Origin: Elusimicrobiota bacterium
Lineage (GTDB): Bacteria; Elusimicrobiota; Elusimicrobia; UBA1565; UBA9628
Reading direction: 5' to 3'
Assembly: GCA_016218575.1 (NCBI GenBank)
Contig: JACRDN010000010.1
Span: 1 to 64,000 of the forward strand
DNA length: 64,000 nt
Both the position numbers and the translations under genes were made by a program. A model generated the notes under the pieces. That model was not told where the DNA came from, searched no databases, and was given only the letters and a program-made list of their open reading frames with translations. Positions 17,683 through 41,394 of this stretch are shown piece after piece (within the stretch, counting starts at the first letter, position 1; each line of letters begins with the position of its first letter).

Positions 17683-18438
17683 ATGGCCGAGTTGAATCTC
17701 CGCCTCGATATTCGGGTTACCCCGGCTTTGGTGCGTTGGGGCTTGGCCGGCCTGCTTCTATCGGTCTTCGCGCCCGAGCTTGCCACGGAATCGGTGACCT
17801 TGACCACGTATTATCCCGCGCCCTCGGGAATATACACCCAGCTCATCGCGACCAACAATACCTATCTTTCCAGGGACGGCGGAAACCTCGGCATCGGCAC
17901 AACGAGCCTGCATTCAAGCGGAGGTTTTACCGCGAAAACCACCTTGGACGCGGGCGGGAGCATGCTGGGCTTGGCGGTGCGAGGATCGGCTTCTCCCGCG
18001 ATCAAGATCATCAACAGCTCCAACACCGAGCTCGGCACGGTGGCCGGGGTGACGGCGGCGGGGGCCTGGGCCACCGGAAGCACGGTCAACGATATAGTGA
18101 TGCGCTCTCCTGCGGGCCGCCTTATCCTCGCCACCGGAGCCTCGAACACCCCTAGGCTTGTCATGGACGGGAGCGGTTATGTTGGAATTGGGGGAGCTCC
18201 CACCGCCTCTGCCTCTAATCTTCCTTTGCAGACCTCAGGGCTTCGGGCCACGCAAACCGGCTGCACCATCACGGGATTTACGACAGGCACCACCAACTGC
18301 GGCGCCAATAATTACGCCACCTTGATCGCCGGCGTCTGGGCCGAGTACATGGTGACTGGAAACATCGCGACCACCGGCGGAGGCGGAGGCCAGGAAGGAA
18401 GCATGCTTTGCTGCCCGTGCGGCGGAGCCTGCCCGTGA
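17683..18438 (+). CDS. Secreted pilin/tail-fibre-like surface protein with Cys-rich tail
   Basis: A 251-residue protein. An N-terminal hydrophobic segment (about residues 23-38) acts as signal or anchor, followed by ESVTLTTYYPAPSGIYTQL and DGGNLGIGTT, motifs I know from repeated surface or tail-fibre-like proteins in Elusimicrobiota-type genomes. The middle is a Thr/Gly/Ala-rich beta-strand region. The last 12 residues are exceptional: after a poly-Gly stretch it ends MLCCPCGGACP, with four Cys at 243, 244, 246 and 250. This resembles the CRGGWCCPRCF tail of the HxsA-type precursor at 29878. It lies just upstream of the radical SAM operon, separated by a large palindrome. Start: ATG 17683 after GGAAGG. 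Confidence 0.65.
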   Translation: MAELNLRLDIRVTPALVRWGLAGLLLSVFAPELATESVTLTTYYPAPSGIYTQLIATNNTYLSRDGGNLGIGTTSLHSSGGFTAKTTLDAGGSMLGLAVRGSASPAIKIINSSNTELGTVAGVTAAGAWATGSTVNDIVMRSPAGRLILATGASNTPRLVMDGSGYVGIGGAPTASASNLPLQTSGLRATQTGCTITGFTTGTTNCGANNYATLIAGVWAEYMVTGNIATTGGGGGQEGSMLCCPCGGACP

Positions 18439-18518: not shown

Positions 18519-19349
18519 ATGGCTTTGCACCTGCCCATCAACGGGGTCTGCAACATCAAGTGCGTTTTTTGCTCGGCCGATGGGCGCAGCGGGGATTTTG
18601 AGCTGGCCTCGCTCCTGGACCAAATAGACCGCGACAAGACCGGACACGTCCAAATATCGGGCGGCGACCCCATGGTCAAGGATCCGGCCGAACTCCTGAA
18701 AATCCTCCTCCGTTGCCGCCAAAAAAATAAGATCATAGAGTTCCAGACTAACGGGGTGATGGTGACCCGCTATAACCCCAAGCGCCTCAAGATGCTCGTG
18801 GGTCTGGTGGATTTCTTCAACATCAATTTCTCCGCGCACACCCCGGAGCTCGACCTCGCGGTGACCGAGACCTCCGGGGCTTTCGAATGGAGGGTCGCCG
18901 GGGTGCGCCGTCTTTTGGAGCTCGGAGCCTCGGTGAGGCTCAACTACATCGTGCACGAGGCCAACTACCGGCACTGCGAGGACTTCGTGCGCTTCGCCGC
19001 GCGCGAGCTCCCCGGGTTCTCTTGGATCCAGTTCAGCTACTGCAAGGGCATGGGGCGGGCCAGGGGCGAGAAGGCGGTGATGCCGCGCTTCCGGGACGCC
19101 GCCCCCTATCTCAACGCGGCCATGGGGCGCTGCTCGGAGCTTGGGCTGGACTTCGACGTGGATCACATCCCGGTTTGCTTTGTCATGGATCATCGGGAGC
19201 ACCACGCCGACTACCGCAAGATGCGAGACTTCACCTCGGGAGTCCATTTGTCGGAGAAGCAGCAGGTGGCCGACTGCAAGCCTTGCGCCATGAAGGACGT
19301 TTGTCCGGGGCCCCGGCGCGACTACATCGAGATATACGGCGCTCTATGA
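18519..19349 (+). CDS. Radical SAM protein, first gene of the RiPP operon
   Basis: A 276-residue radical SAM enzyme. The 4Fe-4S/SAM motif is C11-x3-C15-x2-C18 at the very N-terminus, and ISGGDPM near residue 48 is the SAM-binding GGE-type motif in a GGD form. The barrel continues to about residue 230. A C-terminal group CKPCAMKDVC with a nearby Cys probably binds an auxiliary iron-sulfur cluster (SPASM/twitch-like). There is no signal peptide, so it is cytosolic. It heads 26 co-directional genes and overlaps the desulfurase gene by 4 nt. The reaction is unknown; a peptide-modifying role is inferred from context. Confidence 0.85.
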   Translation: MALHLPINGVCNIKCVFCSADGRSGDFELASLLDQIDRDKTGHVQISGGDPMVKDPAELLKILLRCRQKNKIIEFQTNGVMVTRYNPKRLKMLVGLVDFFNINFSAHTPELDLAVTETSGAFEWRVAGVRRLLELGASVRLNYIVHEANYRHCEDFVRFAARELPGFSWIQFSYCKGMGRARGEKAVMPRFRDAAPYLNAAMGRCSELGLDFDVDHIPVCFVMDHREHHADYRKMRDFTSGVHLSEKQQVADCKPCAMKDVCPGPRRDYIEIYGAL

Positions 19350-20623
19350 CCACCGCTGAGGCGAAGGAATTGGATCTGATAAACATCCGAGACGAGTTTC
19401 CGGCCTTGGAACAGAGAGTGCAAGGCCGGAAGCTCGTCTATCTTGACAGCGCCTGCACGGCCTTGAAGCCCCGTGCCGTGGCCGAGAGGCTGGGCGATTT
19501 CTACCTCCATTGGGGCGGCTGCGGCGGAAAGCGCTCGACCCATCTGGCCTCCCAGCAGGTTCAGGACTGGCTCGAGGAGGCCCGGCGGACCGCGGCCGAC
19601 TTCATCTCGGCGGAATCTCCCAACGAGATCGTCTTCACCTCAGGCACGACGGAGGCGGCCAATCTTCTTGCCCGCGCATTCCCCTTCGATGGGGAGCGCC
19701 GCGAGGTCGTTCTGACGGACCTCGAGCACAACGCGATTTTCCTTCCGTTTCACGAGGCTTGCCTGAGAGGGGAGGTTTCGCTGCGCTTCTGTCCGAGCCG
19801 TGATGGTCGCGTGGATTTGGATGCTCTCGAGGGCCTGATTTCTGAGAAAACCGCATTGGTGTGCATGACTCGGGCCTCGAACGTTTACGGGGGGATTCAG
19901 CCACTGGCTCAGGCGAGCCACCTTGCCCACAGGCGCGGCGCGCTTATCTTCAGCGACGAGGCTCAATACGTGGCCACCCATCGCGAGAAGGTCCAGGAGG
20001 TCAACGCGGACTTCATCGCCTTCTCGGCGCACAAGATCGGAGGCCCCTTTGGGGCCGGGGTCTTGTACGGCAAGGAGAATTTGCTCAACAGGCTTAAACC
20101 CGCCAAAGTCGGCGGGGGGACCGTGAAGTCCGTCGTTTGGGAGAGGGGTGCCTCTCCTCTCGTGGAATACCTGGACGCCCCCGCGCGCTTTGAGGCGGGG
20201 GTGCCTGACTTTGCGGCCATCCTCGGCATGAAGGAGGCCGTGGATTTTCTGCGCCGGATTCCCGAGGAGGAACTCCGCGCTCACGTCTCCGCTTTGGTGC
20301 GGCGCCTGGCGCGGGGGCTGGCCCGGTTTCCCGAACTCCGGGTCCTGGGGCGGGAGGAGGACTTGGCCAAGGGGGCGCTCGTTTCCTTCCATCCCGTCCA
20401 GGAGGGCTTCTCGGTCGCGGACTTCAATCTCTTTCTCAACCACGAGTTGGGAGAGCGCTTCATCGCCATCCGGGCCGGGGAGCACTGCGCGCATCTTCTG
20501 CACCAGAGGCTTGCGCTCCCCGCCACTTTGCGGGTCTCCTTCTTCGCCTACAACACCGCCGAGGAGGTGGATTTCTTCCTGGAGGCCGTGGGGTCGTACC
20601 TGCGCGCGCTCTATGAGCATTGA
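19346..20623 (+). CDS. SufS/CsdA-like cysteine desulfurase (class V aminotransferase fold)
   Basis: A 425-residue PLP enzyme. FSAHKIGGPFGAGVL contains the Schiff-base Lys (K230) and IRAGEHCAHLLHQ the SufS-type catalytic Cys (C381). The N-terminus YLDSACTALKPRAV and TSGTTEAANLLA are also typical of group II desulfurases. It would take sulfur from cysteine as an enzyme persulfide. Both flanking genes encode radical SAM proteins and overlap it (4 and 11 nt), so it may feed Fe-S assembly for the many cluster enzymes or deliver sulfur to the peptide product. No SufE- or SufU-like partner is seen nearby. It could alternatively be a selenocysteine-lyase-like or other lyase branch. Confidence 0.85.
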   Translation: MTTAEAKELDLINIRDEFPALEQRVQGRKLVYLDSACTALKPRAVAERLGDFYLHWGGCGGKRSTHLASQQVQDWLEEARRTAADFISAESPNEIVFTSGTTEAANLLARAFPFDGERREVVLTDLEHNAIFLPFHEACLRGEVSLRFCPSRDGRVDLDALEGLISEKTALVCMTRASNVYGGIQPLAQASHLAHRRGALIFSDEAQYVATHREKVQEVNADFIAFSAHKIGGPFGAGVLYGKENLLNRLKPAKVGGGTVKSVVWERGASPLVEYLDAPARFEAGVPDFAAILGMKEAVDFLRRIPEEELRAHVSALVRRLARGLARFPELRVLGREEDLAKGALVSFHPVQEGFSVADFNLFLNHELGERFIAIRAGEHCAHLLHQRLALPATLRVSFFAYNTAEEVDFFLEAVGSYLRALYEH

Positions 20624-21851
20624 GGCGGAGCTTCCCGGCGTGGAGGCCTCGGCCGACCGGGACGCCTTCGACGAGCCCAAGTGTTTCGATATTCTTCTCA
20701 ATTACGCCTGCAACGCCAAATGCCTTTTCTGCTCGCAGGATTTCGACTGGCGCAAGGCGCCCAACGAGCTTCCTTTCGAAAAGGCGGTGGAGCACCTTTA
20801 TCTTGCCTACAAGAACGGCTACCGCAGGCTGGGATTCACCGGGGGCGAGCCCACCATCCGGCGCGATCTGCCCAATCTCATCGCCTTGGCCCGCAAGATC
20901 GGCTACACCTACATCCGCATTCAGACCAACGGCGTGCGCATCGCGGACTACGACTACGTCAAGGCCTTGACCGATGCGGGGCTCACCTTCGTCAAGTTTT
21001 CCATCCACGGCCATGAGGCAGGGCTCCACGACAAACTCGTGGAGGTTCCCGGGGCCTTCGACAAATGCCTGCGCGCCATCGAGAACTTAAAGAAGCTCAA
21101 TGTCGGCATCGGAGTCAACATCGTTTTGAACGAGTGGAATTACAGGCATCTCGTCGAGTTCTACGAGCTGTTCCTGATCAAGCTCGAACTTTCCAATTTC
21201 GTCATCATAGCACCCTTGTATGAGGGGAACATGACGAGTCATGTTCCCCTCATGGGAGCCAGGCTGACGGACATGGCTCCGCACATCCGCCGGGCATACG
21301 AGGTCTTTACAAGGATCAACTTTCCGAAACCACCGCTCCTTCTCCATTTCACGCCGTGCGTTCTTCCGGGCTACGAGCAGCAGATGCTGGGATGGTCGGC
21401 CTTCAACACCATGGTGGTGAGCCCCAAGGGGGAAAAGCGGGACCTCGACATGACGGCCCAGTTCCACACCGTCAAAACCGAGGCCTGCGGGCGCTGCGTC
21501 TACAACGACCGCTGCATTGGTTTTGACAAATCCTACGCCCGCTTCTTCGGGATTGGGGAGATCGCGCCGCTTTCGGAGGTCCCCCAGCGCTACGATGCCC
21601 AGAGCCAAAGGCCCCGTCACGAGGGACGCAGCGTGCTTACCGACAACGAAAAATGCGTTCTCGAGGTCCTGAAGGTGAAAAGCCCCGTCGCGACCAAGGA
21701 GTTTCTTGGGGTCGCGGAGGGCATCCCGCTCTGCAAGGACTGCAAGGATGAGAACGCGGTGATAAACGCCGCCGAAACCTTGATCCGCATGGGCCTGGTC
21801 CATCGGGAGTTCAGGCGGGGCAAGTATTTTTGGAGTCTGAAGCCTGAATGA
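20613..21851 (+). CDS. Radical SAM protein with C-terminal winged-helix-like extension
   Basis: A 412-residue protein. Residues 33-40 hold C-x3-C-x2-C (YACNAKCLFC), followed by FTGGEPTIRRD and the IQTNGVR and KFSIHGHEAGLHD barrel motifs. Near residues 290-300 CGRCVYNDRC is a likely auxiliary cluster site. Residues about 335-412 form a separate domain (LTDNEKCVLEVLK... LIRMGLVHREFRRGKYFW) like a winged-helix module, containing another CKDC pair. It is most similar in this window to the radical SAM domains at 35347-36300 and 36297-37241. ATG 20613 overlaps the desulfurase by 11 nt. A 34-bp perfect palindrome sits inside the gene at 21220-21253. Confidence 0.85.
   Translation: MSIEAELPGVEASADRDAFDEPKCFDILLNYACNAKCLFCSQDFDWRKAPNELPFEKAVEHLYLAYKNGYRRLGFTGGEPTIRRDLPNLIALARKIGYTYIRIQTNGVRIADYDYVKALTDAGLTFVKFSIHGHEAGLHDKLVEVPGAFDKCLRAIENLKKLNVGIGVNIVLNEWNYRHLVEFYELFLIKLELSNFVIIAPLYEGNMTSHVPLMGARLTDMAPHIRRAYEVFTRINFPKPPLLLHFTPCVLPGYEQQMLGWSAFNTMVVSPKGEKRDLDMTAQFHTVKTEACGRCVYNDRCIGFDKSYARFFGIGEIAPLSEVPQRYDAQSQRPRHEGRSVLTDNEKCVLEVLKVKSPVATKEFLGVAEGIPLCKDCKDENAVINAAETLIRMGLVHREFRRGKYFWSLKPE
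21220..21253. repeat. 34-bp perfect palindrome inside a radical SAM gene
   Basis: Arms of 16 bp (21220-21235 and 21238-21253) surround a 2-nt centre GA. It is translated in frame (EGNMTSHVPLM) in a region where the paralogous radical SAM proteins differ. Confidence 0.8.
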
Positions 21852-22819
21852 AGGAGCCCGGGAAGATCGAGAAGCTGGTCCTTTTCACCGGTTTTTCCTG
21901 CAACAGCCATTGCCATTTCTGCATAGACCTCAACAAGAGGGATCTTCCGGATAAGTCCACCCAGCAAATCGTCTCCGAGATGGCCCAGGCCCGGGCCAAG
22001 GGGGTCGAGTACCTGGAGCTCATCGGGGGGGAGACCACGATCAGGGGGGACTTCCTGCCCTTGGTGCGCACGGCAAAGAAGCTGGGCTTTAAGGACGTCG
22101 TGGTGGTGACCAACGGCCGCATGCTCTCCTACCCCGAATTCGCGCGCCAAACCGTCGAGGCCGGGGTGACCGACCTCATCTTCTCCATCCACGGCCACGA
22201 CGCGCGGCTCCACGACGAGCTCACCTTCGCCCCGGGGGCTTTCGAGGAGCTCTTGAAGGGGATAGAGAACGTCCGCGCCCTGGGATTTGAGCGGATCTTC
22301 GCCAACTGCACGGTGGTTAGGCAAAACATGGAGCGCATGCCCGACATCGGCCGGCTCTTCATCGAGCTCGACATCCACCACGCCGAGTTCATTTTCGTGG
22401 ATCCCACCTACGGCGGCGCCTACACCAATTTCAAAGGCCTGGTTCCACGCATCGCCGAAGCCGCGCCTTACTTGCGTGAGACGCTGGACATCGGCCGGCG
22501 TTGGGGCACCAGGGACTGGTGCGTGCGCTACGTCCCTCTCTGCCATTTCGCGGAGTACCTCGATCAAGTGAGCGAGCTCAGGGAGGTCGAGCTTTTCCAC
22601 ACCCGGCATTGGGCGCCGGACTTCAAGAACGAGGACGTGGGGGGATCGCGCAAGCTCGCGGCCCGGGCCAAGACCGAGCGCTGCGAAGGCTGCGCGCTTT
22701 ACGAACGCTGCGAAGGGCTGTGGAAAGAATACCTGCGGCACTACGGGGATGAGGAGTTAAAGCCAGTAGAACAGCCAACGCCCCTCACGGCGACCCGCCT
22801 CCCGCGGGGAGGCGGGTGA
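21848..22819 (+). CDS. Radical SAM protein with C-terminal auxiliary-cluster Cys
   Basis: A 323-residue radical SAM protein: C18-x3-C22-x2-C25 (FSCNSHCHFC), the SAM motif ELIGGETTIRGD, VVVTNGRML, and IFSIHGHDARLHDEL. Near residue 280 the group CEGCALYERCEG suggests an auxiliary Fe-S cluster. The last 20 residues are a Thr/Pro/Arg-rich tail. It starts in the stop of the preceding gene (ATGA) and ends one base before the hxsC-like gene. The SIHGH strand motif links it to the 20613-type enzymes rather than to HxsB. Reaction unknown. Confidence 0.85.
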   Translation: MKEPGKIEKLVLFTGFSCNSHCHFCIDLNKRDLPDKSTQQIVSEMAQARAKGVEYLELIGGETTIRGDFLPLVRTAKKLGFKDVVVVTNGRMLSYPEFARQTVEAGVTDLIFSIHGHDARLHDELTFAPGAFEELLKGIENVRALGFERIFANCTVVRQNMERMPDIGRLFIELDIHHAEFIFVDPTYGGAYTNFKGLVPRIAEAAPYLRETLDIGRRWGTRDWCVRYVPLCHFAEYLDQVSELREVELFHTRHWAPDFKNEDVGGSRKLAARAKTERCEGCALYERCEGLWKEYLRHYGDEELKPVEQPTPLTATRLPRGGG

Positions 22820-22820: not shown

Positions 22821-23783
22821 ATGCCCGATTTCCCCATCTGGCCTCAGTGCAACATAGGCTGTGTCTTCTGCTCCAACCCTGTGGAGGGCTTCCGCCACAC
22901 CACCGACAAATACTCCTTCGAGGAGATCAAGAAGAAGCTCGAGGACTACAAGCGGGGCCTGCGCACCTTCGTCAAATTCGACGAGGTCCGGGACTACTTC
23001 AACCTCACCGGCGGGGAGCCCACCATCCATCCGGATTTCCTTAAAATACTGGCGCTCATCCGCAGCGAGTTCCCGCAGAACCTCATCCGGCTTTTGAGCA
23101 ACGGCCGTATGTTTGCCTATGAGGATTTCGCGCGCCGGACCTGCGGGATAGCGGGGACTGCCTTCGAGGCCGCCATTCCCATGTTCGGCTACGATTCTAA
23201 AACCCACGAGAGCATTTCCCGAACGCCGCTCAGCTTCCGACAGACCACGCGCGGCCTTTGGCATCTCGAGCGCCACCGCAAGCCCGGCCAACTCGTCGAG
23301 ATCCGGGTGATCCTCACCCGCATCCAATGCCGCTATTTGGACGGGCTCCTTGATTTCCTCTTGGCCGAGTTTCCCTGGGTAGATCGTCTGACACTTCTCT
23401 ACGAGGAGATCGAGGGCTTTGCCGAGAAGTACCGCGAGGCGCTCAAGATTCCCATGTCCGAGGCAGCGGGTGCCGTGGACCGCAATTACGAGAAACTTCT
23501 GAGGTTCAAGGACGCCAGACTCTACCATTTCTCCCTCTGCACCGTGCCCACCCGGCTCTGGCCCATGGTTTGGAATACCTTGGCCGATTTTAAGGTCTCC
23601 TATCTGGAGGGCTGCCGCTCCCAATGTCTGTACCGGCCGCAGTGCGTGGGAGTGCACCGTTCCTACGTCAAGCACGCCGGAGCCCCGGACATCGCCCCGA
23701 TCTTGAAGGCCAGGCCCGTGGTTCTGAGCCAAAATCCTTATCACCCCATCGAGTCCCTTGAAGAAAAAAGCCTTCCGCTTTAA
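22821..23783 (+). CDS. hxsC: HxsC-like radical SAM maturase (His-Xaa-Ser system)
   Basis: A 320-residue radical SAM protein that matches my knowledge of HxsC best. The N-terminus IWPQCNIGCVFCSNP (C10, C14, C17) is followed by FNLTGGEPTIHPDFLKIL, LSNGRMFAYEDFA, IPMFGYDSKTHESI with SFRQTTRGL, RVILTRIQCRYL, and a C-terminal CTVPTRLWP... ISDW-like stretch ending in Cys pairs of an auxiliary cluster. This order of motifs is that of the His-Xaa-Ser maturase HxsC. It is followed by hxsD-like and hxsB-like genes, as in known Hxs loci. The exact modification is not known to me. Confidence in radical SAM is near certain, in HxsC somewhat less. Confidence 0.8.
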   Translation: MPDFPIWPQCNIGCVFCSNPVEGFRHTTDKYSFEEIKKKLEDYKRGLRTFVKFDEVRDYFNLTGGEPTIHPDFLKILALIRSEFPQNLIRLLSNGRMFAYEDFARRTCGIAGTAFEAAIPMFGYDSKTHESISRTPLSFRQTTRGLWHLERHRKPGQLVEIRVILTRIQCRYLDGLLDFLLAEFPWVDRLTLLYEEIEGFAEKYREALKIPMSEAAGAVDRNYEKLLRFKDARLYHFSLCTVPTRLWPMVWNTLADFKVSYLEGCRSQCLYRPQCVGVHRSYVKHAGAPDIAPILKARPVVLSQNPYHPIESLEEKSLPL

Positions 23784-23796
23784 GGCCGAGCCGCGG

Positions 23797-24228
23797 ATGG
23801 GCCGGCTCCGGGTCTTCCGGCTTGGGGCCGACTCCAAGGCCTGGCTCGGAGCCTGTTATCTCATGACCGAGAGGGCCTATGTCGGCCTCGAGCTCAAGGG
23901 TGCAACCCCAAGGGCGACGCTTTGGCCCAAGCCCGGAAAGAAGCTGGCCGGCTTGGCCGAAGCCTTCTCGACCGCCTACCAGGAACAGCTCCGGGGATGG
24001 ACTTTGGCGCGGAGAAATCGCAGAGAGAGATTTAAGCTCCGCGCTGCTGATGCGGCGCAGCGCATAAAGCCCAACGCAACTCCTGATGGCCTTGAACACC
24101 ACGCCGCTGACGCGGCGCAGCGCAGGGAAATCTCCAGGCTGCTGGCCGAGGAGCTCCAAATGGCGGACCCCTTGGGGATTAGAACCCCATGGGACGAGGC
24201 CAGGGCCTTAGGGCTCGCAATGAAATAA
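23797..24228 (+). CDS. HxsD-like protein 1
   Basis: A 143-residue protein with the HxsD signature LGACYLMTERAYVGLELKG near residues 17-35, equivalent to AAYLMTDRAYVRV in the 25920 gene. The family is a small partner of the Hxs radical SAM maturases. The middle contains a short duplicated stretch AADAAQR (two copies about 20 residues apart), unlike the other copies. The stop codon and last residues (LAMK) come from the inverted repeat of the MITE-like element at 24210, so the C-terminus was probably changed by the insertion. I took ATG 23797, 13 nt after hxsC; a TTG at 23758 is in frame. Confidence 0.6.
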   Translation: MGRLRVFRLGADSKAWLGACYLMTERAYVGLELKGATPRATLWPKPGKKLAGLAEAFSTAYQEQLRGWTLARRNRRERFKLRAADAAQRIKPNATPDGLEHHAADAAQRREISRLLAEELQMADPLGIRTPWDEARALGLAMK

Positions 24229-24481
24229 TATGACCAACTGGCCGGGGCAATTTTGGGGCGAGACGAGGATCGAGGAGCGAGCATACCCGCAACGGTATGT
24301 GAGTGACGAGAGACGAAGTCGCAGCCCAAAATTGCCCCGGCCCTCCGGGCAGGCCCATCTTCGGCCGATTTCTTCGTTGCTCGTCGGTCACAATGCGCTG
24401 CGGCATTGCTCCCTCCTCGCGCCTCGAAATCAACTCGAATCTGGGCCTGCCAGTTGGTCATATTATTTCATTGCGAGCCCT
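24210..24481. mobile_element. Palindromic MITE-like element, copy 3
   Basis: A 272-bp element, near reverse complement of the copy at 15148, with 32-bp terminal inverted repeats (24210-24241 and 24450-24481), a TTA on both flanks and two internal hairpins. It is inserted in the RiPP operon between two hxsD-like genes; the left end overlaps the last 19 bases of the first gene and provides its TAA stop. It encodes no transposase. It might terminate or attenuate transcription of the operon. Confidence 0.85.
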
Positions 24482-24491
24482 TAGGGCGGAA

Positions 24492-24911
24492 ATGATTTCA
24501 TTCAAGCGCGGCGGCGCCACCCTTCTCCTTCCCAAGTCATTCTACTCGCGGGAAAGCCTGGCGGCCGGGGCCTTGGCGGCCGGAGACCGGGCGCTGGTTT
24601 ATCTGGAAGAGGGAAGCAAGGCTTATAAAATCGAGTTCAAATGGACGAAAGGCCGCGCGGGGATAGGCGGGCTCTCCCAACGACGGCGGGTGCAGGCCGT
24701 CGGCGAATTTCTCAACGAGGCCTTGAGCCATGCTTACCGGCAGAAAGTCGTGGCCTTCAACTTCAAACAAACCCAAGAGGTCTTCTCGCGCCTCTTGGCG
24801 CGAGGATTCGTCGCCGTTGCCGCCGATCCCCTCGAGGAGCTAGAGCCCCAGGTGCGCCTGGACCGCGAGGCGGAGGTGGGATCTCTCATGGAAGAGGCGC
24901 ATAAATTATGA
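24492..24911 (+). CDS. HxsD-like protein 2
   Basis: A 139-residue protein starting 11 nt after the MITE-like element with a GGGCGGA ribosome site. It contains the HxsD-like core LPKSFYSRESLAAGALAAGDRALVYLEEGSKAYKIE, then FLNEALSHAYRQKVVAFNFKQTQEVF, which lines up with FLNEMLNQEYRFVVGAFNRKI of the 27943 copy and with the LLNDYxLRE-type helix of the family. It overlaps the inactive HxsB-like gene by 4 nt, so the pair repeats the D-then-B order seen twice more downstream. Confidence 0.6.
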   Translation: MISFKRGGATLLLPKSFYSRESLAAGALAAGDRALVYLEEGSKAYKIEFKWTKGRAGIGGLSQRRRVQAVGEFLNEALSHAYRQKVVAFNFKQTQEVFSRLLARGFVAVAADPLEELEPQVRLDREAEVGSLMEEAHKL

Positions 24912-25870
24912 CCGCAGGCATCGAGTCCTGGCAGGGGCCGCCGCGCCATGTCATGGCGCTGGAGCGCCACGGGAGAGCGATGAGCCTCGATGCCGCGCGG
25001 CGCGCGGCGGACTTCATCTTCGCCACCCCGAGCCCGGCTCTCAGCATCGAGCTCTGTGCGCGCAGCCTCGAGGCGGCCTGGCCCGCGGCCTGGTTCCTGG
25101 TTCAATACATTCAGCTCAGGGCCGAGTGGTCCAAAAGGGAAGTTCGCATGTTCCTGCGCGCGGCGGAGCCTATAGAACCCGCGCGCCTCGAGTTCTTGGG
25201 CGCCCGCAAGGTTATCCTGCGCGCAGATCTGGCCTTGCGCGGCGCTCCGGAGCCGGGAGTCCGGCCGCCATTTCCGGCAGCTCGAGCCCTGGCGGAGGTG
25301 AGGCGGGACTCCGCGGCCCCGGCGGCTTGGATGGATTGGCTCTTGGCCATGGGATTTTCCGCCGTGCTCCTGGCGCCGGAAGCGGGGCTTCTGGAGGCCG
25401 TCAAGGGCCGCAAGCTCTTCCTTGACTTCTATTCCCGGGCTCTCGACCAGCTTGAGCTGATCGGCCGAGACAAACTGGTGGAGGAGGGACAAGAAGCGTT
25501 CCTAAAGCGCCAGCCTTGGCACCTTCCCGGCCTGGACGTGCTGGGGGAGCTGGCCTACGGGCCGGAGGGGGATGTCTACACTAGCGAGTTCGCTTTGGGA
25601 TTGGGGGATTCTCCGTTCAAGCTGGGGCGGGCCGATGAGCTCAAATATCCCGATCTGTCCCACAACGAGACGGTGCGGGCGTGCCTTGCGGCTTCTCACG
25701 CGGAGAATCAGCCGCGCTGTTTCCAGTGCCGCTACAAGGCCTACTGCGCCGTTTCTCCTTCCCGTCATTGGGCTCTGCAGTCCGCGATTTGGGGCCAGAC
25801 TCCGTCAAGCCCCCTTTGCGCCTTGAACATGGCGCTTCTCGACTTGATTTCCCCACGCGACCGAGTTTGA
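24908..25870 (+). CDS. HxsB-like protein lacking the radical SAM cysteines (pseudoenzyme)
   Basis: A 320-residue protein aligned with the HxsB-like proteins at 26414 and 28403. The core helix RRAADFIFATPSPALSIEL matches RKTVDFIFRTPNPTLCVEF, and the C-terminal SPASM-like part (from about residue 205: LAYGPEGDVYTSE, FKLG, NQPRCFQCRYKAYCAVSPS, SAIWGQTPSSPLC) is intact. The whole segment with the CX3CX2C motif is missing and the GGEP motif is replaced, so it cannot bind the radical SAM cluster. It probably serves as a partner or a scaffold holding the auxiliary cluster. The reading frame is undamaged over its full length, arguing against recent decay. Confidence 0.75.
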   Translation: MTAGIESWQGPPRHVMALERHGRAMSLDAARRAADFIFATPSPALSIELCARSLEAAWPAAWFLVQYIQLRAEWSKREVRMFLRAAEPIEPARLEFLGARKVILRADLALRGAPEPGVRPPFPAARALAEVRRDSAAPAAWMDWLLAMGFSAVLLAPEAGLLEAVKGRKLFLDFYSRALDQLELIGRDKLVEEGQEAFLKRQPWHLPGLDVLGELAYGPEGDVYTSEFALGLGDSPFKLGRADELKYPDLSHNETVRACLAASHAENQPRCFQCRYKAYCAVSPSRHWALQSAIWGQTPSSPLCALNMALLDLISPRDRV

Positions 25871-25919
25871 CTACCGGCGACAAACCTGATACGATTGTTG
25901 GCTGTTCCGGCATGAATTT

Positions 25920-26417
25920 ATGACCTCTACGAACCCCAAGGACGCCTCCGAGCTGAGCCTGCGCCTAGACGTGAAGGCAGAGGGCATGGAGCCGATCCTC
26001 GCCGCCGCCTATCTCATGACCGACCGGGCCTACGTCCGCGTTTCTGGGGACCGGGAGAAGACCTTGGAGGTTTGCCTGGCCGCCAAGCGGCCGGAGTTTC
26101 TGTTCCCGGAGGCCCTGGCCGAGGCCTTCAAGCGCGAGCTCGCGACACAGAAGGTGCGCTGGGCCGTCGCCAAGAACAATCTGCCGGTGAGGGAATTCGT
26201 GGCCGAGCAGGCGGTGATGCTTGCCAACGGCCAGCTTCCGCCCGAGCCGCAGCCCGCAGAGCCGCCCCCGGACCAGCTCTCGGATGAGCAGCGCCGGGAG
26301 ATCGAGAAGCTTATCGCCGAGGTGGAGGAGGAGATCAAGACCCTCAACCAGAAGAAGGCGGTGCCCGACCCGAAGAACATCAAGGCTTCCTGGGAAGAAA
26401 AAAGAAGCCTCTCATGA
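25920..26417 (+). CDS. hxsD: HxsD-like protein 3
   Basis: A 165-residue protein and the clearest HxsD match of the set: ILAAAYLMTDRAYVRVSGD near residues 25-45, an FPEALAEAFKRELATQKVRWAVAKNN helix and NLPVREFVAEQAVML, corresponding to the family's LLNDYxLRE region. The last 60 residues are a Pro/Glu/Lys-rich charged tail predicted to be helical. It is separated by 49 nt from the preceding gene and overlaps hxsB by 4 nt, the standard hxsD-hxsB coupling. Its role is probably as partner of the maturase; no catalytic motif is visible. Confidence 0.7.
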   Translation: MTSTNPKDASELSLRLDVKAEGMEPILAAAYLMTDRAYVRVSGDREKTLEVCLAAKRPEFLFPEALAEAFKRELATQKVRWAVAKNNLPVREFVAEQAVMLANGQLPPEPQPAEPPPDQLSDEQRREIEKLIAEVEEEIKTLNQKKAVPDPKNIKASWEEKRSLS

Positions 26418-27943
26418 GCCGGCTGACCTCCCTTCCCGCCGGGACCTCCATCGAGACCCAGTCTCTGGGCCCATTTAATTTCCGCGACATGGGAGGCTGG
26501 CATCTTCTTACCAACGACTGGGGCCACCACTTCATGATGGAGGACTGCGATTTCAAGCGCTTCATGGCCGGCGAGCTTGCCCAAAACGAACCGCTTTGGC
26601 AATCCTTGAAGGACAAGGGATTTTTGCGGGATTTCCTGGACTTCAGGGCCTTGGCCGCCTCCTACGTCAGGAAGAACTCCTTCCAGTGGACTCCGGGCCC
26701 GAGCCTGCACATGATAGTGGTCACCTTGCGCTGCAACCAGAAGTGCCAATACTGTCATTCGAGCGTGGTCGATCCGTCGCGCACCGACACGGACATGGAT
26801 TTGGAGACGGCGAGGAAAACCGTGGATTTCATATTCCGGACCCCCAACCCCACGCTCTGCGTCGAATTCCAAGGCGGGGAACCATTGCTCAATTGGCCGG
26901 TGGTGAAATTCATCATTGACTACGCCCAAGCCAAGGCCAAGGCCGGCAAGCGCAAGCTCATCATGGCCTTGGTCTGCAATTTCACCTTGATGACCGAAGA
27001 CAAGCTCGACTTCCTCATGGACCGGCATGTTTCCATCTGCACATCTCTCGATGGCCCCGCCGAGCTGCACAACCGCAACCGCCCCTTTTTGGGCGGGGGC
27101 GAGGCCCAGCCCAAGGTGGTGCGCTGGATTTCGGAGATTCAAAAGCGCTGCCGCGAGGATGCCGACAAGAAGCATTATCTGCCGGGAGCCTTGATGACCA
27201 CGACGAGGTTCTCTTTCCCATACTACCGGGAGATAGTGGATTTGTACGCGGGCCTGGGCTTGGAGCAAATATTCCTGCGTCCCCTGTCTCCGATTGGCTA
27301 CGCCAAGAGGGTTTGGCACGAGATCGGCTATTCCGCCGAGGAATTCGCGGCTTTCTACGAGAAGTCCCTCGATTACATCCTAGAGCTCAACCGCTCGGGG
27401 AAATCCCAGATCATGGAGCGCACGGCCTTGATCCTGCTCACGAAGATTCTCAAGGGCGAGGACCCGGGCTTCATGGACCTGCGCTCCCCGGCGGGCGCGG
27501 TGCTGGGGTGCCTGGCCTACAATTACAACGGCGAGATTTTCGTGAGCGACGAGGGGCGGATGGTGGACCATCAGGGCGACCCGCTCTTTCGGGTGGGGGA
27601 CGCAATCAAGGACTCCTGGGCGGACGTCATAGACCATCCCACGACCAGGGCCTGCGCCGCCTCCTCGACCTTGGATAATCAGCCCATGTGCTTCCAGTGC
27701 GCCTACAAGCCCTATTGCGGCGTCGAGCCGGTATTTCATTACGAGACGCAGAAAAGCGTCTTCGGGCAGATTCCCTCGAGCCCCTGGTGCGTTTCGCACA
27801 TGGGGACTTTCGACGTTTTGTTCAAGAAGCTGCGGGACCCGGAGGCCCGGAAGGTGCTCGATGGATGGCTCGAACGCGACCAATGCCGCTGGCAAGAAAG
27901 TGGCCCGGCGCCCGCGGGCGTTGGGCAGGGAGAGCTGCTTTAA
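26414..27943 (+). CDS. hxsB: HxsB-like radical SAM/SPASM maturase 1
   Basis: A 509-residue protein. Residues 1-95 form an N-terminal domain with alternating aromatic segments (FNFRDMGGWHLLTNDW, FLDFRALAASYV) as in HxsB, likely a leader-binding unit. The radical SAM motif is C107-x3-C111-x2-C114 (LRCNQKCQYCHSS), with EFQGGEPLLNWPVVKFI as SAM-binding motif, and TSLDGPAELHNRNR. The C-terminal SPASM-like region has LAYNYNGEIFVSDEGRM and QPMCFQCAYKPYCGVEPV. The architecture and the CxxxCHSSV plus EFQGGEPLLNW combination fit HxsB. It is coupled to hxsD (4 nt) and to the next hxsD-like gene (1 nt). Confidence 0.85.
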   Translation: MSRLTSLPAGTSIETQSLGPFNFRDMGGWHLLTNDWGHHFMMEDCDFKRFMAGELAQNEPLWQSLKDKGFLRDFLDFRALAASYVRKNSFQWTPGPSLHMIVVTLRCNQKCQYCHSSVVDPSRTDTDMDLETARKTVDFIFRTPNPTLCVEFQGGEPLLNWPVVKFIIDYAQAKAKAGKRKLIMALVCNFTLMTEDKLDFLMDRHVSICTSLDGPAELHNRNRPFLGGGEAQPKVVRWISEIQKRCREDADKKHYLPGALMTTTRFSFPYYREIVDLYAGLGLEQIFLRPLSPIGYAKRVWHEIGYSAEEFAAFYEKSLDYILELNRSGKSQIMERTALILLTKILKGEDPGFMDLRSPAGAVLGCLAYNYNGEIFVSDEGRMVDHQGDPLFRVGDAIKDSWADVIDHPTTRACAASSTLDNQPMCFQCAYKPYCGVEPVFHYETQKSVFGQIPSSPWCVSHMGTFDVLFKKLRDPEARKVLDGWLERDQCRWQESGPAPAGVGQGELL

Positions 27944-28416
27944 TGGAATTTGAAATAGACGAAGAAGAGCGGACCGTGAGCTTCGAGGCCTGCGCCAAGG
28001 CGTATTCTTTGGATGCCGTGCAGATCTCGGCCCACATCTTCTCGGGGCGCGCGAACGTGTTCCTGGACCGCTCGGAGGATGCCTTCGAGCTCGCCTTGCA
28101 GTCCAAGAAAAAGAGCGCCGCCGCGGAGTTGGAGGTCCTGGCCAGGGAGTTCTTGAACGAGATGCTCAACCAGGAGTACCGCTTCGTGGTCGGGGCCTTC
28201 AACCGGAAGATCTCCAACCTCATCGTCACCCAGGCGCTTCTGGCGGCCCGTGGTGGGGAGGCGGCGCCCGCCTCGGGAGAAGAAACGGATGAGTTCAAGG
28301 TCTTCGCGGCCCGGCTCATGCGGGAGGCTCAGGAGGAGATCGCCAGGACCATGCCGAGGAAAATCGCGCCCCAGGGAGCCCCAATTCCGCCCCCGGCGGA
28401 GGATGCGAGTGTCTAG
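27943..28416 (+). CDS. HxsD-like protein 4
   Basis: A 157-residue protein starting inside the stop of hxsB (TAATG). The core CAKAYSLDAVQISAHIFSGRANVFLDR corresponds to the YSLEAV...AAY...RA.V of HxsD, followed by FLNEMLNQEYRFVVGAFNRKISNLIVTQALL. The C-terminal 50 residues are charged and Pro-rich. The conserved AAY is replaced by AHI, so it is a divergent copy. It overlaps the second hxsB-like gene by 14 nt, forming the third D-B pair of the locus. Confidence 0.65.
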   Translation: MEFEIDEEERTVSFEACAKAYSLDAVQISAHIFSGRANVFLDRSEDAFELALQSKKKSAAAELEVLAREFLNEMLNQEYRFVVGAFNRKISNLIVTQALLAARGGEAAPASGEETDEFKVFAARLMREAQEEIARTMPRKIAPQGAPIPPPAEDASV

Positions 28417-29863
28417 GCTGACCGAGCTCGAGACCCCGTCCGTCCCCAAGGCCGAGCGGGTCGCTCAGCACAATTTCCGGGTTCGAGGCTCGAAAGTCCT
28501 CGTCACCAACGAGGCCGGGGAGTTCGCAGCACTCTCTGCCGAGGACTACCGCCGCTACTTGACCGGAGAGATCGGGCCGGACGACACCCTGGCCAAGGGG
28601 CCGGGCGGCCTCATACAAAAGGAGTTCCTGAGGGACCAGCTGGATTTCCGGGTCCTGGCCGGGGCGAGCGTAGACAAGAACCTGCTCGATTGGAAAGGCC
28701 CCAACGTCCATACGGTCGTGGTGACTTTGCGCTGCAATTTCAAATGCGCGTACTGCCATGCGAGCGTCGTGGACCTTTCCAGAACCGACAAGGACATGAG
28801 CGTGGAGACGGCCCGCCAAGTGGTGGAGCTCATTTTCCAGAGCCCAAGCCCGTCGCTCATGATCGAGTTCCAGGGAGGAGAGCCGCTGCTCAACTGGCCC
28901 GTCGTGAAGTTCATCGTTGCCTATGCCAGGAAGAAGAACGAGGCGGCCAAGCGCTCCCTTCATTTCGGCCTTATCTCCAATTTCAGCCTGCTGACCGACG
29001 AGGTGGTCGCGTGGGCCGAGGAAAACGGAGTCTCCTTCTGCACATCCCTGGACGGGCCCGAGGATCTGCACAACCGCAACCGCATCCATTTGGGCGGCAA
29101 TACGTACCAAGAGGTGACGGCCGGCCTGAGAAAAATCCAAGAGCGCAGGCGACAAGGGGCCAAGCTCGACGCCCCCAACGCCATCTGCACCGTGACCCGC
29201 CAGTCTTTGCCCCGGGCCAGGGAAATCGTGGAGGAGCTGTCGGGGCTGGGCCTTGAGCGCATCCAGGTCGGGCCGCTCGACCCCATTGGGTTTGCGGCGC
29301 GGGCTTGGGACAAGATCGGATACGGCGCGGAGGAGTTCGCGGCTTTTTACGCCGAGGTCCTGGACTCCCTGATCGAGCTCAACCGCAAAGGGGTGAAGGC
29401 CTACGAGAAAATGGCCCTCATTTTCCTCATTCGGATATTGGAGAAGGGCCATTGGCGCTTCCCGAACGCCGACGCGCTTTGCCGCCTGGCCTACAACCAC
29501 GATGGCGACGTTTACACTTGCGAGGAGGGACGGCTCTTGGCCAACGAGGGGGACGAATTCTTCAAGATCGGCCGAGCGGGAGAGTCGAGCTACGCGGAGC
29601 TTTTGGACCATCCGACGGTAAGGGCCTCGCTCATGGCAGCCAGCCCAAATTGCCAGCCTCTGTGCTTCCAATGCGCCTACAACCCGTACTGCACGGTTTC
29701 TCCCGTTTTCAACCACCGGACCCAGGCCAGCCTCTGGGGGCAATTTACGTCCAACGCCTGGTGCGGGAAGATGATGGGAATTTTCGACGTTCTATTTGAA
29801 AGGCTCGAGGATCCGGAGGCCAGGAAGGTCCTCGAGTCGTGGCTCGAGTACAAGGACCGCTAA
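28403..29863 (+). CDS. HxsB-like radical SAM/SPASM maturase 2
   Basis: A 486-residue paralogue of the 26414 protein. The N-terminal 105 residues (HNFRVRGSKVLVTNEAGEFAALSAEDYRRY...) look like a PqqD/RRE-type leader-binding region. The radical SAM motif is C111-x3-C115-x2-C118 (LRCNFKCAYCHAS), then EFQGGEPLLNWPVVKFI and TSLDGPEDLHNRNR. The SPASM-like region has LAYNHDGDVYTCEEGRL and QPLCFQCAYNPYCTVSPV. I chose ATG 28403, which leaves a 14-nt overlap with the HxsD-like gene; GTG 28409 is possible. Its stop is 14 nt before the precursor gene, so it is the maturase nearest the substrate. Confidence 0.85.
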   Translation: MRVSRLTELETPSVPKAERVAQHNFRVRGSKVLVTNEAGEFAALSAEDYRRYLTGEIGPDDTLAKGPGGLIQKEFLRDQLDFRVLAGASVDKNLLDWKGPNVHTVVVTLRCNFKCAYCHASVVDLSRTDKDMSVETARQVVELIFQSPSPSLMIEFQGGEPLLNWPVVKFIVAYARKKNEAAKRSLHFGLISNFSLLTDEVVAWAEENGVSFCTSLDGPEDLHNRNRIHLGGNTYQEVTAGLRKIQERRRQGAKLDAPNAICTVTRQSLPRAREIVEELSGLGLERIQVGPLDPIGFAARAWDKIGYGAEEFAAFYAEVLDSLIELNRKGVKAYEKMALIFLIRILEKGHWRFPNADALCRLAYNHDGDVYTCEEGRLLANEGDEFFKIGRAGESSYAELLDHPTVRASLMAASPNCQPLCFQCAYNPYCTVSPVFNHRTQASLWGQFTSNAWCGKMMGIFDVLFERLEDPEARKVLESWLEYKDR

Positions 29864-29877
29864 TCGAGGAGGACGCC

Positions 29878-30327
29878 ATGGCTGAGAAAAAACCGAAGGA
29901 CAAGAGCAAGGGAAAGAAGAAGAAAAAGCCGGAGCTCTTGCCCCAGCTCAAGAAGGACGCCTCGGTGTTCCTAAGCAGCGAGGAGGGGAAAATCACCAAG
30001 GAGAACGTGGTCAAGACCGCGACGGCGCTTGGCATCATCGGCGCCGCCCTCTTGAAGGCCGCTCCGGCCCCCGCCCAGCACTCCAACTACCTCCACAACT
30101 CCGGCGGCACCGGCTCGCATGTGAGCCACGGCTCCCATGGCTCTCACGGCTCGCACGGTTCGCATGGCTCCCACGGCTCCCACGGCTCGCACGGTTCGCA
30201 TGGCTCCCATGGTTCGCATGGCTCCCACGGCTCCCACGGTTCACATGGCTCCCACGGTTCCCACGGTTCACATGGCTCCCACGGCAGTCATTGCCGCGGC
30301 GGCTGGTGCTGCCCACGCTGCTTTTAA
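29878..30327 (+). CDS. hxsA: HxsA-type RiPP precursor: (Ser-His-Gly)n repeat with Cys/Trp tail
   Basis: A 149-residue peptide with a strong GAGGAGG ribosome site 5 nt before ATG 29878. Residues 1-18 are Lys-rich; 27-62 are an amphipathic then hydrophobic leader (LSSEEGKITKENVV, TALGIIGAALL); APAPAQ at 63-68 could be a processing site. Residues 80-138 are 20 consecutive Ser-His units, 18 of them SHG, opening with SHV. The tail, residues 139-149, is CRGGWCCPRCF with four Cys and one Trp. This is the His-Xaa-Ser repeat layout of HxsA, with an additional Cys-rich end. It sits directly between radical SAM genes, which should modify it. Product and activity are unknown. Confidence 0.88.
   Translation: MAEKKPKDKSKGKKKKKPELLPQLKKDASVFLSSEEGKITKENVVKTATALGIIGAALLKAAPAPAQHSNYLHNSGGTGSHVSHGSHGSHGSHGSHGSHGSHGSHGSHGSHGSHGSHGSHGSHGSHGSHGSHGSHGSHCRGGWCCPRCF
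30115..30291 (+). repeat. 9-bp minisatellite coding Ser-His-Gly in hxsA
   Basis: Twenty tandem units of the type TCN-CAY-GGY. Third-codon positions vary in a higher-order pattern: a 36-bp block (30148-30183) begins again at 30184 for at least nine codons, and an 18-bp TCA-containing block recurs near 30240 and 30267. This points to growth by block duplication. Confidence 0.85.
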
Positions 30328-30330: not shown

Positions 30331-31440
30331 ATGGCTGCGGCGCCGAATCATTTGGCGGTTTATCTTTCCAACCGCTGCAATTTGGCCTGCAGCTACTGCT
30401 ATGTCTCGGTCAACCAGGGGGCGCCGGCTCATCTAAGCTTCGAAGACGTCAAGGAATCGGTGGATTATTTCCTGGACGAGGTGCCTGGCGCGGATAAGAA
30501 GATCACCTTCTTGGGAGGAGAGCCCTTCCTCAATTTCCCGCTCTTGGAGCGCATGGTCCGGCACGCGCGCTGGAGGGGCGGGGAGAGCCTGGTCCTGCAG
30601 ACCTTCACCAACGGGACGCTCCTGACTCCGGAGAGGCTGGAGTTCCTCAACGACTACGAGGTCTACGCCACGATCAGCCTGGACGGAACCCAGCGCACCA
30701 ACGACGCCAAGAGGTTCTTCCACGGCGACAAGGACCGCTCTGTTTTCGCCGAGGTGATGGCCCGGCTCAAGGACATCCCCAAGGACAATTTGGGCGTGAG
30801 TCTGGTGTTTAACTCCGGGAGCGTGGGAGAACTCCTGCCCAACATCGATTTTTTCTACCGCATGGGCTTTGGCCGCATCACCTTCAATCCCGAGCTCTAC
30901 GAGGCGTGGTCCCTGGAAAGCTTGGAGGTTCTTAGGGGCGTGATGCAGGGCTTTGCTCGCTATTACCGCTTAATTTTGGAGAAGAACATGCGACCCTTCG
31001 TGATTCCCATCCTGTTCTCGGTTTTGGAGAATGCTCCTAAAAATGCCGCGGGTGAGCGTTGGTGGCACGACTGCCACAACGTGGTCCTCGGCCCGGACAA
31101 GCAATTCTACGCCTGCGACAAGGCCTTGAGCTTCCCGATCGGGGAGGCCGAGGGCCAGAAAGTGGGAAACGCCGCCGCGGGAATGGATTGGGACAAAAGG
31201 CAGGAGCATTTTCGCGAGGCGGCGCAGTACATCGAATCCCGCGGCTGGGGCAAGGACGAGTCCTTCTGCCCCATGGGCGTGTATTTCCACAGCCGCCAGG
31301 CGGGGGCGGATCCCCAGCCGGCGCTTGAGAATTTCCACAGGGTAGGCGAGCTCTTCGCCGAGAGCCTGGTGGGACTGGCGCGCGCGCTCGAGGGCCATCC
31401 GGTTTTTGAGGAGCTTTATGTCCGGCCTCGCCTCGTCTGA
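30331..31440 (+). CDS. Radical SAM enzyme with twitch/SPASM-like C-terminus, next to the precursor
   Basis: A 369-residue protein starting 3 nt after the precursor stop. C16-x3-C20-x2-C23 (SNRCNLACSYCYVS), FLGGEPFLNF, TNGTLL and ATISLDGTQRTND are textbook motifs of peptide-modifying (anSME/SPASM-type) radical SAM enzymes. The C-terminal third has Cys at HDCHNVVLGPDKQFYACDKAL and FCPMGVYFHSR, an irregular auxiliary-cluster set. The 31418 and 37238 proteins are paralogues. Position right after hxsA makes it a prime candidate to act on the repeat or the Cys/Trp tail. No RRE-like N-terminal domain, so it may depend on partner proteins for substrate binding. Confidence 0.85.
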   Translation: MAAAPNHLAVYLSNRCNLACSYCYVSVNQGAPAHLSFEDVKESVDYFLDEVPGADKKITFLGGEPFLNFPLLERMVRHARWRGGESLVLQTFTNGTLLTPERLEFLNDYEVYATISLDGTQRTNDAKRFFHGDKDRSVFAEVMARLKDIPKDNLGVSLVFNSGSVGELLPNIDFFYRMGFGRITFNPELYEAWSLESLEVLRGVMQGFARYYRLILEKNMRPFVIPILFSVLENAPKNAAGERWWHDCHNVVLGPDKQFYACDKALSFPIGEAEGQKVGNAAAGMDWDKRQEHFREAAQYIESRGWGKDESFCPMGVYFHSRQAGADPQPALENFHRVGELFAESLVGLARALEGHPVFEELYVRPRLV

Positions 31441-32542
31441 TGCCCCGAGCCTTGCGGGGGGGCTTGCCACCAACAAGGAGATCCGCCGCTTCAAGGTGGC
31501 AATCAACACGGCGTGTCCCCTGCGCTGCGAGTACTGCTTCATAGACAAGGAGTCTGGCGAGGTCGTGTCCTGGCCGGTGGTTCAAGCCCTCATCGGCTTC
31601 ATGCTCTCCTCCCCGGGCCAAGTAAAAAAGCTCCTGATTTACGGCGGCGAGCCATTCCTTAAATTCGACCTGGCCCGGGAGATTGCCCTCTACGCCAGGG
31701 CCCGGGCCGCCGAGGCGAAGAAGGACCTCGACCTATCCATATGCACGAGCGGGGTGTCGGTTTCGCGCGGACAGCTGGAGTTCCTGCGTGACCAGAGCTT
31801 CTTCCTGTCGGTCAGCCTCGATGGCGGCGCCGAGACCCATGACCGGCGGCGGAGGCTCAAAAACGGAGCTGGAAGCTGGGCCCGCATCCGGCCCAACCTC
31901 GACCGCATCTTCGATGTGATGGGGCGGCGCCGCACCATGGCCATTCAATGCGTGCACCCGGACAACGTCGAGCGCATGCTGGAGAATTTCCAGGCCTTGG
32001 TGGGCATGGGCTTCGAGAACGTGGAGATAGAGGTGATCCATGGCTTCGGCTGGGAGAAGGCCCGGACGCTTTTCAGGCCCATGCTCGGTAAGGTCCTGGA
32101 GTGGGTATGGTCCGAGGCCCGGGAGGGCCGGAGGCGCTTCCTGGTCTGTTCCTTGGCGCCCTTGATGCTCAAGGAGGGGGTGATCCTCGAGGACCACTGC
32201 CCCTTCCATTCCTCCATGGAATGCTACCCGGATGGGAGCTATTCCTTCTACCCCTTCGCTTTCGTGGACTGGGAGGGCCGGCGCCGCTCGGCGGTGGGAA
32301 GTGCCAAGGGGGGGGTGAGCGAGCGCTACCGGGCCTGCGCATTTTCCGCCGAAAGCCAGGCCTGCCGCAATTGCACCGCGGACTACTACAGCAGCCCCGG
32401 CATCAACCAGGGAAACGATCCCTACCGCTGGCGCACGGAGATGGCTCGCGCCTTCATGGACCGCGTGGCCCTGGCCGCCAAGAGCGATCCCATGATGAGA
32501 GAGTACTTGCGTGAGGCCTTGGTGCGATGCCGGATCAGTTGA
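31418..32542 (+). CDS. Radical SAM enzyme with C-terminal Cys cluster
   Basis: A 374-residue protein. C33-x3-C37-x2-C40 (NTACPLRCEYCFID), IYGGEPFLKF, CTSGVSVS and LSVSLDGGAETHDRRRR are present. Auxiliary-type Cys occur in DHCPFHSSMECYPDGSYSFYPF and near ACAFSAESQACRNCTADYY. It is similar in layout to the 30331 and 37238 proteins but with a distinct C-terminus. The start ATG 31418 has a GAGGAG ribosome site (31408-31413) inside the preceding gene, giving a 23-nt overlap. Its end overlaps the large TPR-radical SAM gene by 16 nt. Confidence 0.82.
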   Translation: MSGLASSDAPSLAGGLATNKEIRRFKVAINTACPLRCEYCFIDKESGEVVSWPVVQALIGFMLSSPGQVKKLLIYGGEPFLKFDLAREIALYARARAAEAKKDLDLSICTSGVSVSRGQLEFLRDQSFFLSVSLDGGAETHDRRRRLKNGAGSWARIRPNLDRIFDVMGRRRTMAIQCVHPDNVERMLENFQALVGMGFENVEIEVIHGFGWEKARTLFRPMLGKVLEWVWSEAREGRRRFLVCSLAPLMLKEGVILEDHCPFHSSMECYPDGSYSFYPFAFVDWEGRRRSAVGSAKGGVSERYRACAFSAESQACRNCTADYYSSPGINQGNDPYRWRTEMARAFMDRVALAAKSDPMMREYLREALVRCRIS

Positions 32543-41393: not shown

Positions 41394-41394
41394 C

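Follow-up and report, generated by a model that had tools for sequence, protein, structure and literature searches.

The stretch analysed here comprises positions 1 to 64,000 of contig JACRDN010000010.1 (forward strand; assembly GCA_016218575.1) of an Elusimicrobiota bacterium. This whole stretch of 64,000 nucleotides is called the window below; it lies on contig C10 of a 2.82 Mb genome. Between 22821 and 30327 its plus strand carries nine genes related to the His-Xaa-Ser (Hxs) systems, which are predicted to make ribosomally synthesized and post-translationally modified peptides (RiPPs). In order, they encode an HxsC-like radical S-adenosylmethionine (SAM) maturase, two HxsD-like proteins (D1 and D2), a pseudo-HxsB (psB), D3, HxsB1, D4, HxsB2 and an HxsA4 precursor. 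The prediction of Hxs systems dates back to 2011 (Haft and Basu, cited in PMC9062424). A preliminary description of the window had already placed HxsC-, HxsD-, HxsB- and HxsA-type genes together in this order, and this order is confirmed. Its counts of four HxsD-like and three HxsB-like proteins also stand. What it missed is that one of the three HxsB-like proteins is a conserved pseudoenzyme.

The contrast with a canonical Hxs system is one of size and composition. In the example on plasmid p057_G of Nostoc sp. C057, single copies lie in the order A-D-B-C (the precursor being of the A2 type), in keeping with the earlier view of Hxs as a compact four-gene cassette. The window instead has C-D-D-psB-D-B-D-B-A. 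What it shares with the Hxs system (TIGR03976-TIGR03979, HxsA4 NF038313, HxsC4 NF038332) is the HxsA4 precursor type and the adjacency of HxsB, HxsC-like and HxsD-like genes. Beyond the canonical set it has psB, HxsD proteins of two subtypes and another eight radical-SAM enzymes, along with a desulfurase, flavoenzymes and TPR proteins. The main genes from 18519 to 53120 are all on the plus strand and form a single, nearly gapless co-directional run of about 35 kb, just as the preliminary description, which spoke of a 35-kb operon, had it. The CX3CX2C motif is present in 11 proteins of the run (rS1, rS2, rS3, HxsC, HxsB1, HxsB2, rS5, rS6, TPR-rS7, rS8, and rS9).

When the proteins are searched with the NCBIfam models, HxsA and two HxsB proteins score above the cut-offs, and HxsC and two HxsD proteins match below them; the HxsB, HxsC and HxsD models all match significantly. 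The cut-offs are 50 bits for HxsD (TIGR03976), 267.9 for HxsC (TIGR03977), 370 for HxsB (TIGR03978) and 55 for HxsA4 (NF038313). HxsB1 (26414..27943) reaches 478.5 bits and HxsB2 (28403..29863) reaches 412.2. The HxsA4 precursor (29878..30327) scores 107 bits and consists of a conserved leader, a His-Gly-Ser tract with about 20 His-Xaa-Ser units and the tail HCRGGWCCPRCF. The HxsC-like maturase (22821..23783) scores 161.5 bits, which is below the cut-off, yet the homology extends over model positions 34-291 of 292 and for this reason it is named HxsC-like; it is 63-78% identical to its orthologues. The HxsD-like proteins are more distant still. D3 (25920..26417) and D4 (27943..28416) score 37.6 and 43.9 bits, respectively, the latter when scanned from a longer upstream start. 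D1 (23797..24228, with a start at 23758 possible) and D2 (24492..24911) have no NCBIfam match on their own, and are related to the D3/D4 profile by hhalign (probabilities 99.7 and 99.2). TIGR03976 is matched by three of the eight members of the D1 family and two of the seven members of the D2 family. Since D3 and D4 fall under the cut-off and D1 and D2 are homologous by profile only, all four are called HxsD-like.

The pseudoenzyme psB (24908..25870) matches TIGR03978 at its SPASM end only, with 64.4 bits against the cut-off of 370. It has neither the CX3CX2C nor the GGEP motif, hence the name pseudo-HxsB. Alignments of its orthologues (six and seven rows) show that CX3CX2C is gone from all of them and that C271, C274, C280, and C304 are invariant. 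The window copy also lacks the N-terminal domain, whereas most orthologues retain it. An AlphaFold2 model (mean predicted local distance difference test score, pLDDT, 82.6) has the fold of a SPASM-type radical-SAM protein. Its neighbours in a Foldseek comparison with the PDB are CteB, TigE, ChlB, and anSME (E 9e-11 to 8e-7), the structures being 5why (CteB, E 8.9e-11), 8vpo, 9gm3 and 4k37. Going by this model, psB is a conserved pseudo-radical-SAM protein with its predicted fold and its SPASM cysteines retained. It resembles the family pseudo_SAM_Halo (TIGR04347), which, judging by its name, likewise combines a radical-SAM fold and SPASM with the lack of a usable SAM cluster. Unlike that family, psB is an HxsB descendant inside an Hxs locus, beside active-looking paralogues.

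The history of the HxsB copies can be partly traced. In a maximum-likelihood tree psB forms one clade (100/100) that joins the HxsB2 group (100/98), its exact placement being uncertain owing to long psB branches. HxsB1 forms another clade (100/100), which includes sequences from both of the families in which the enlarged locus occurs. Because the HxsB1 clade spans both families and psB joins HxsB2, the duplication predates the family split. Further degenerate HxsB copies occur in genomes G023 (psB2 of locus L050) and G022 (contig C67), and these extra copies suggest that dead HxsB partners have arisen more than once. The copy in G022 (C67:6295-7803, L130) has retained GGDP and lost CX3CX2C; an intact HxsB is encoded nearby on the other strand.

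The four HxsD-like proteins fall into two subtypes. In a single-family comparison D1 is nearest to D3 (E 1.7e-25 vs 5e-10 for D4) and D2 is nearest to D4 (E 2e-18 vs 1.6e-7 for D3). Therefore, the enlarged block holds two HxsD proteins of each subtype, alpha (D1 and D3) and beta (D2 and D4), in alternation. An HxsD protein that lies beside HxsB3 in family f2 is intermediate between the two. The subtypes are kept in place across loci. D2, D3, and D4 are directly upstream of psB, HxsB1, and HxsB2, respectively, and D1 comes after HxsC. From these positions we infer that each HxsD may have a partner-specific role. A model of D3 (pLDDT 84) has the order beta-alpha-beta-beta-alpha-alpha. The idea that HxsD is a classical winged-helix RiPP recognition element found no support in either the model or the fold search.

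About a dozen Elusimicrobiota genomes, from two families, share the enlarged architecture in synteny. G019 and G011, of the same family and other genera, repeat the order Pre1-rS1-desulfurase-rS2-rS3-C-D-D-psB-D-B-D-B-A-rS5-rS6-TPRrS7-rS8-rS9. The core recurs in the second family, in G023, G025, and G031 (where it is split over contigs). A scan of genome contigs found eleven loci, including L044 in CP096137.1 (titled a complete chromosome); these are partly on the same contigs as the G-numbered genomes, and the two lists overlap. Such recurrence in different genera and a second family means that the arrangement is not due to chance. In every genome where psB was read, its reading frame is open. 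In a sample of 295 genomes of the phylum, HxsA4 is above its cut-off in 67 and psB has strong matches in about ten. Family f8, of the same class, has several loci with two or three HxsB genes, some of them with HxsC and a desulfurase, and psB was not found at these loci. Copy-number growth is thus the wider phenomenon, and only the D-D-psB-D-B-D-B architecture is restricted. Locus L047 (FW305_bin.15) was considered as a compact ancestor and set aside because the same genome (G031) has a D2-psB-D3-B1-D4 block on another contig. At L044/L059 (G298:C1, ~1,577,000-1,597,000; CP096137.1) rS2, HxsB1, and rS6 appear frame-split, possibly through sequencing frameshifts.

The tail of HxsA4 differs among loci. 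It reads HCRGGWC[CN]PRC in all nine readable enlarged loci of family f1, to which the window locus belongs, and H[SAQ]RGGWC in one compact locus of the window genome and in many f8 loci. Other tails are HGQW, HGAW, HGSW, HGSY, HFSF, and HGSGT. The compact locus (C17:227600-243000; L021, L022) is a second Hxs locus with a Pre1 gene (see below), one HxsD, one HxsB, HxsA and other radical-SAM genes; its HxsA ends in HSRGGWC.

What might act on such a tail? Downstream of the precursor, on the same strand, are three radical-SAM proteins whose best family is that of the PapB-type ranthipeptide maturases (NF047865): rS5 (30331..31440; 123 bits), rS6 (31421..32542; 110 bits) and rS9 (37238..38257; 63 bits). 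As they are under the cut-off of 340, they are named PapB-like. With their relatives included, NF047865 is the best or near-best family and the scores span 63-139 bits. Co-occurrence with the tail was assessed for 84 precursor genes, a PapB-like gene being counted if it was within 7 kb on the same strand. A gene of at least 60 bits is nearby for 30 of the 32 precursors with a tail cysteine vs 7 of the 52 without one, and a gene of at least 100 bits for 23 of the 32 vs none of the 52; these thresholds were tried after the data had been seen, and contig ends hide some neighbours. Taken together, the remaining radical-SAM genes differ little or not at all with the tail overall, though there is some difference within f8. 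A tree built from the adjacent HxsB proteins has only five independent tail changes, and the PapB-like state follows in a median of four and opposes in none. Given that the loci are related and the independent changes so few, the link between tail cysteine and PapB-like gene is suggestive.

A second protein with a cysteine tail is encoded upstream of the run. Pre1 (17683..18438, plus strand) is of a secreted type, with a TTYYPAPSG motif and a Cys-rich C-terminus that ends in MLCCPCGGACP. Its homologues adjoin many Hxs loci, and of the 43 listed all except one have CC near the C-terminus, the exception (G011) having CxxC. In the enlarged f1 loci the Pre1 tail has three or four cysteines (CCPCGGACP in the window and CCDCPTGGCPSL in L042). 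It is possible that Pre1 is itself modified as a second substrate, or that it serves as an anchor. It cannot be treated as a purely Hxs-specific family, since paralogues exist away from Hxs loci and most lack CC: on contigs without a fetched Hxs locus, five of the seven readable paralogues are without it and two have it.

The gene content supports viewing the window locus as a putative expanded Hxs RiPP-type maturation core. Its probable mode of working, in our judgement, is that HxsB and HxsC act on the repeats and PapB-like enzymes act on the Cys tail, with psB being non-catalytic. The pathway would be leader-directed, the HxsD proteins most likely being small partner subunits through which HxsA is delivered to HxsB and HxsC. 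The His-Gly-Ser repeats would next undergo radical-SAM chemistry by HxsB1, HxsB2, and HxsC, and the most plausible outcome is oxidation or cross-linking of His or Ser side chains; the suggestion of His-to-Ser cross-linking is by analogy with three-residue cyclophane enzymes. psB, without ligands for the SAM cluster, could be a binding subunit or an auxiliary Fe-S subunit. rS5, rS6, and perhaps rS9 would form thioethers on the cysteine tail of HxsA, and two halogenase-like flavoenzymes, FDH1 (38245..39972) and FDH2 (50763..53120), may act on the tail Trp. The TPR proteins might provide a scaffold. There are precedents that make the tail steps plausible: PapB makes Cys-Asp/Glu thioethers (PMC9413430) and the RiPP flavin brominase SrpI acts on the C-terminal Trp of the core LCCCW (PMC10858898).

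Several observations weigh against this scheme. HxsC and HxsD score under their curated cut-offs, and rS5, rS6, and rS9 are far under that of PapB. The HxsA tail is without the Cys-X3-Asp/Glu motif and, as it has no Asp or Glu, the partners used by PapB, the PapB precedent does not name a partner residue for a thioether. The five tail changes give a median p of 0.125 in a sign test. No halogenase-like gene is within 7 kb of a Cys-tail precursor and no correlation with the tail was found, so a tie between halogenase and HxsA tail was abandoned; these enzymes would, in addition, need O2. The D3 model has no PDB match better than E 0.028, which leaves gene position as the basis for a recognition role of HxsD. 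A dedicated peptidase or exporter was not recognised, and a search of the open-licence literature did not find a product or activity for HxsB, HxsC, or HxsD.

The presence of Pre1 invites a different explanation, namely that the locus makes a secreted structural or metal-binding material in which His-rich HxsA is anchored by its Cys tail to that of Pre1, and that the enzymes cure or cross-link both. Near many Hxs loci there are Pre1 homologues, nearly all of those listed ending in Cys-Cys; the enlarged f1 loci have additional cysteines in the tails of both proteins (Pre1 C[CE]xC...C and HxsA CRGGWC[CN]PRC); and the locus is conserved, with no exporter or immunity gene recognised. However, both the export of HxsA and its contact with Pre1 would have to be assumed. 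Moreover, Pre1 was not detected within 7 kb of some Cys-tail Hxs loci and is also found beside HxsA proteins without tail cysteines. We consider this explanation unlikely. An extension of it, in which catalytically dead HxsB and paired HxsD subtypes organise a multi-enzyme complex on the His-Gly-Ser tract and the HxsA and Pre1 tails are cross-linked, possibly to each other, to give a novel type of secreted radical-SAM-cured material, is quite unlikely. The flavoenzymes point to yet another idea. If FDH1 and FDH2 were Trp hydroxylases, like QhpG, LodB, and GoxB, the GGWC tail might hold a protein-derived redox cofactor of the tryptophylquinone type. They do match the QhpG (100-107 bits), LodB (75-92) and GoxB (63-71) models, and Trp adjoins Cys in the HxsA tail. 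This is nevertheless very unlikely, because the best model match is the halogenase CmlS, the solved structures most similar to FDH1 are those of halogenases, and both proteins carry the WxWxIP and FxxPxxSxG motifs. Furthermore, many GGWC-tail loci have no such flavoenzyme nearby and the tails of the enlarged f2 loci have no Trp.

Could the locus simply be a classical bacteriocin-type RiPP cluster that releases a small antimicrobial? Sactipeptide and ranthipeptide clusters can have several radical-SAM maturases per precursor. Yet those proteins of the run that were read or scanned included no recognisable ABC transporter, peptidase or immunity gene. In addition, the locus has been kept, in conserved order, in different genera and families, and the precursor and its compact paralogues are widespread in the class. 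We rate this proposal as improbable as the redox cofactor. Finally, the extra HxsB and HxsD copies might be decaying, functionless duplicates. The missing SAM-cluster motif of psB, the missing N-terminal domain of the window copy and the degenerate copies of G023 (a second) and G022 (a third) would be in keeping with decay. However, decay would not explain why psB is an open reading frame, syntenic in two families, whose SPASM cysteines are invariant, nor the conservation of HxsB1 and psB as separate clades and of the HxsD subtypes in place. This possibility is largely refuted by conservation and is extremely unlikely.

The preliminary description had rated the locus as the most likely undescribed system of the window. 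In the open-licence literature, searched by Hxs names and by Elusimicrobia or Elusimicrobiota with radical SAM or RiPP, there is no description of the enlarged locus, and an account elsewhere is possible. To that extent the claim holds, but the precursor family is not new: HxsA4, like HxsC4, is an existing NCBIfam name. What is new here is the co-occurrence of tail cysteines and PapB-like genes, the Cys-Cys-tailed Pre1 at many Hxs loci, and the two alternating HxsD subtypes. The expanded Hxs system offers unusually clear handles, namely a repeat tract, a tail that varies, and enzymes whose presence changes along with it, and the assignment of tail to enzyme becomes directly testable in the window system. 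psB provides a conserved natural pseudo-radical-SAM partner adjoining active-looking paralogues. More broadly, the little-cultured phylum Elusimicrobiota would appear to be rich in multi-enzyme radical-SAM peptide maturation.

The other genes of the run, all on the plus strand, surround the core on both sides. Upstream are rS1 (18519..19349), which has CX3CX2C and matches TIGR03977 with 78 bits (below cut-off); a SufS/CsdB-like cysteine desulfurase (19346..20623; PF00266, 314 bits); rS2 (20613..21851), which has CX3CX2C and scores 702-746 bits to most orthologues in the two families; and the HxsC4-like rS3 (21848..22819), with 135 bits to NF038332 (cut-off 500). The desulfurase has conserved its catalytic Cys and its pyridoxal phosphate Lys (the RxGxHC and SxHK regions are aligned), and its best PDB relatives are cysteine desulfurases. 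Downstream, among the PapB-like genes, are rS7 (32527..36300), a TPR protein fused to a radical-SAM domain (CX3CX2C at residue 949; NF038332, 99 bits), and rS8 (36297..37241), which has CX3CX2C.

Among known systems, FDH1 and FDH2 come closest to flavin-dependent halogenases, the brominase SrpI and the QhpG and LodB maturases, and both have the halogenase motifs WxWxIP and FxxPxxSxG. They differ from known halogenases in being far under the CmlS cut-off (174 bits for this best model vs an equivalog cut-off of 900), and FDH2 is fused to a TPR C-terminus (PF04820, 98.8 bits, plus TPR families). A PqqD-like tail seen by eye in both proteins was not supported by Pfam. Between the two flavoenzymes are six repeat-rich, mutually homologous TPR proteins (39969..50766; starts at 39969, 41395, 42974, 44998, 47028, and 49039), most of which have orthologous counterparts within the corresponding clusters of G019 and G011. 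Another TPR protein (53231..54865, plus strand) is just past the co-directional run. TPR-repeat proteins in tandem are unusually numerous here (39969-50766 and 53231-68460, the last part in L023) and partly homologous.

Two kinds of repeat element are also present. A REP-like (repetitive extragenic palindromic) sequence, GTGACAGTTACTTAATT, is located at 18440-18500 between Pre1 and rS1, and related copies occur at several other genomic sites. The widest gap of the run, upstream of D2, holds a 280-bp element (24206..24485, no strand) that resembles a miniature inverted-repeat transposable element and has 40-bp terminal inverted repeats. It separates D1 from D2 here, whereas most of the orthologous loci read have the two genes abutting or overlapping. 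Several near-full-length copies in the genome are 96-98% identical and further ones about 80%. Copies are also present at 15146-15422 and 9288-9525 of the window, and many contig ends fall inside the element.

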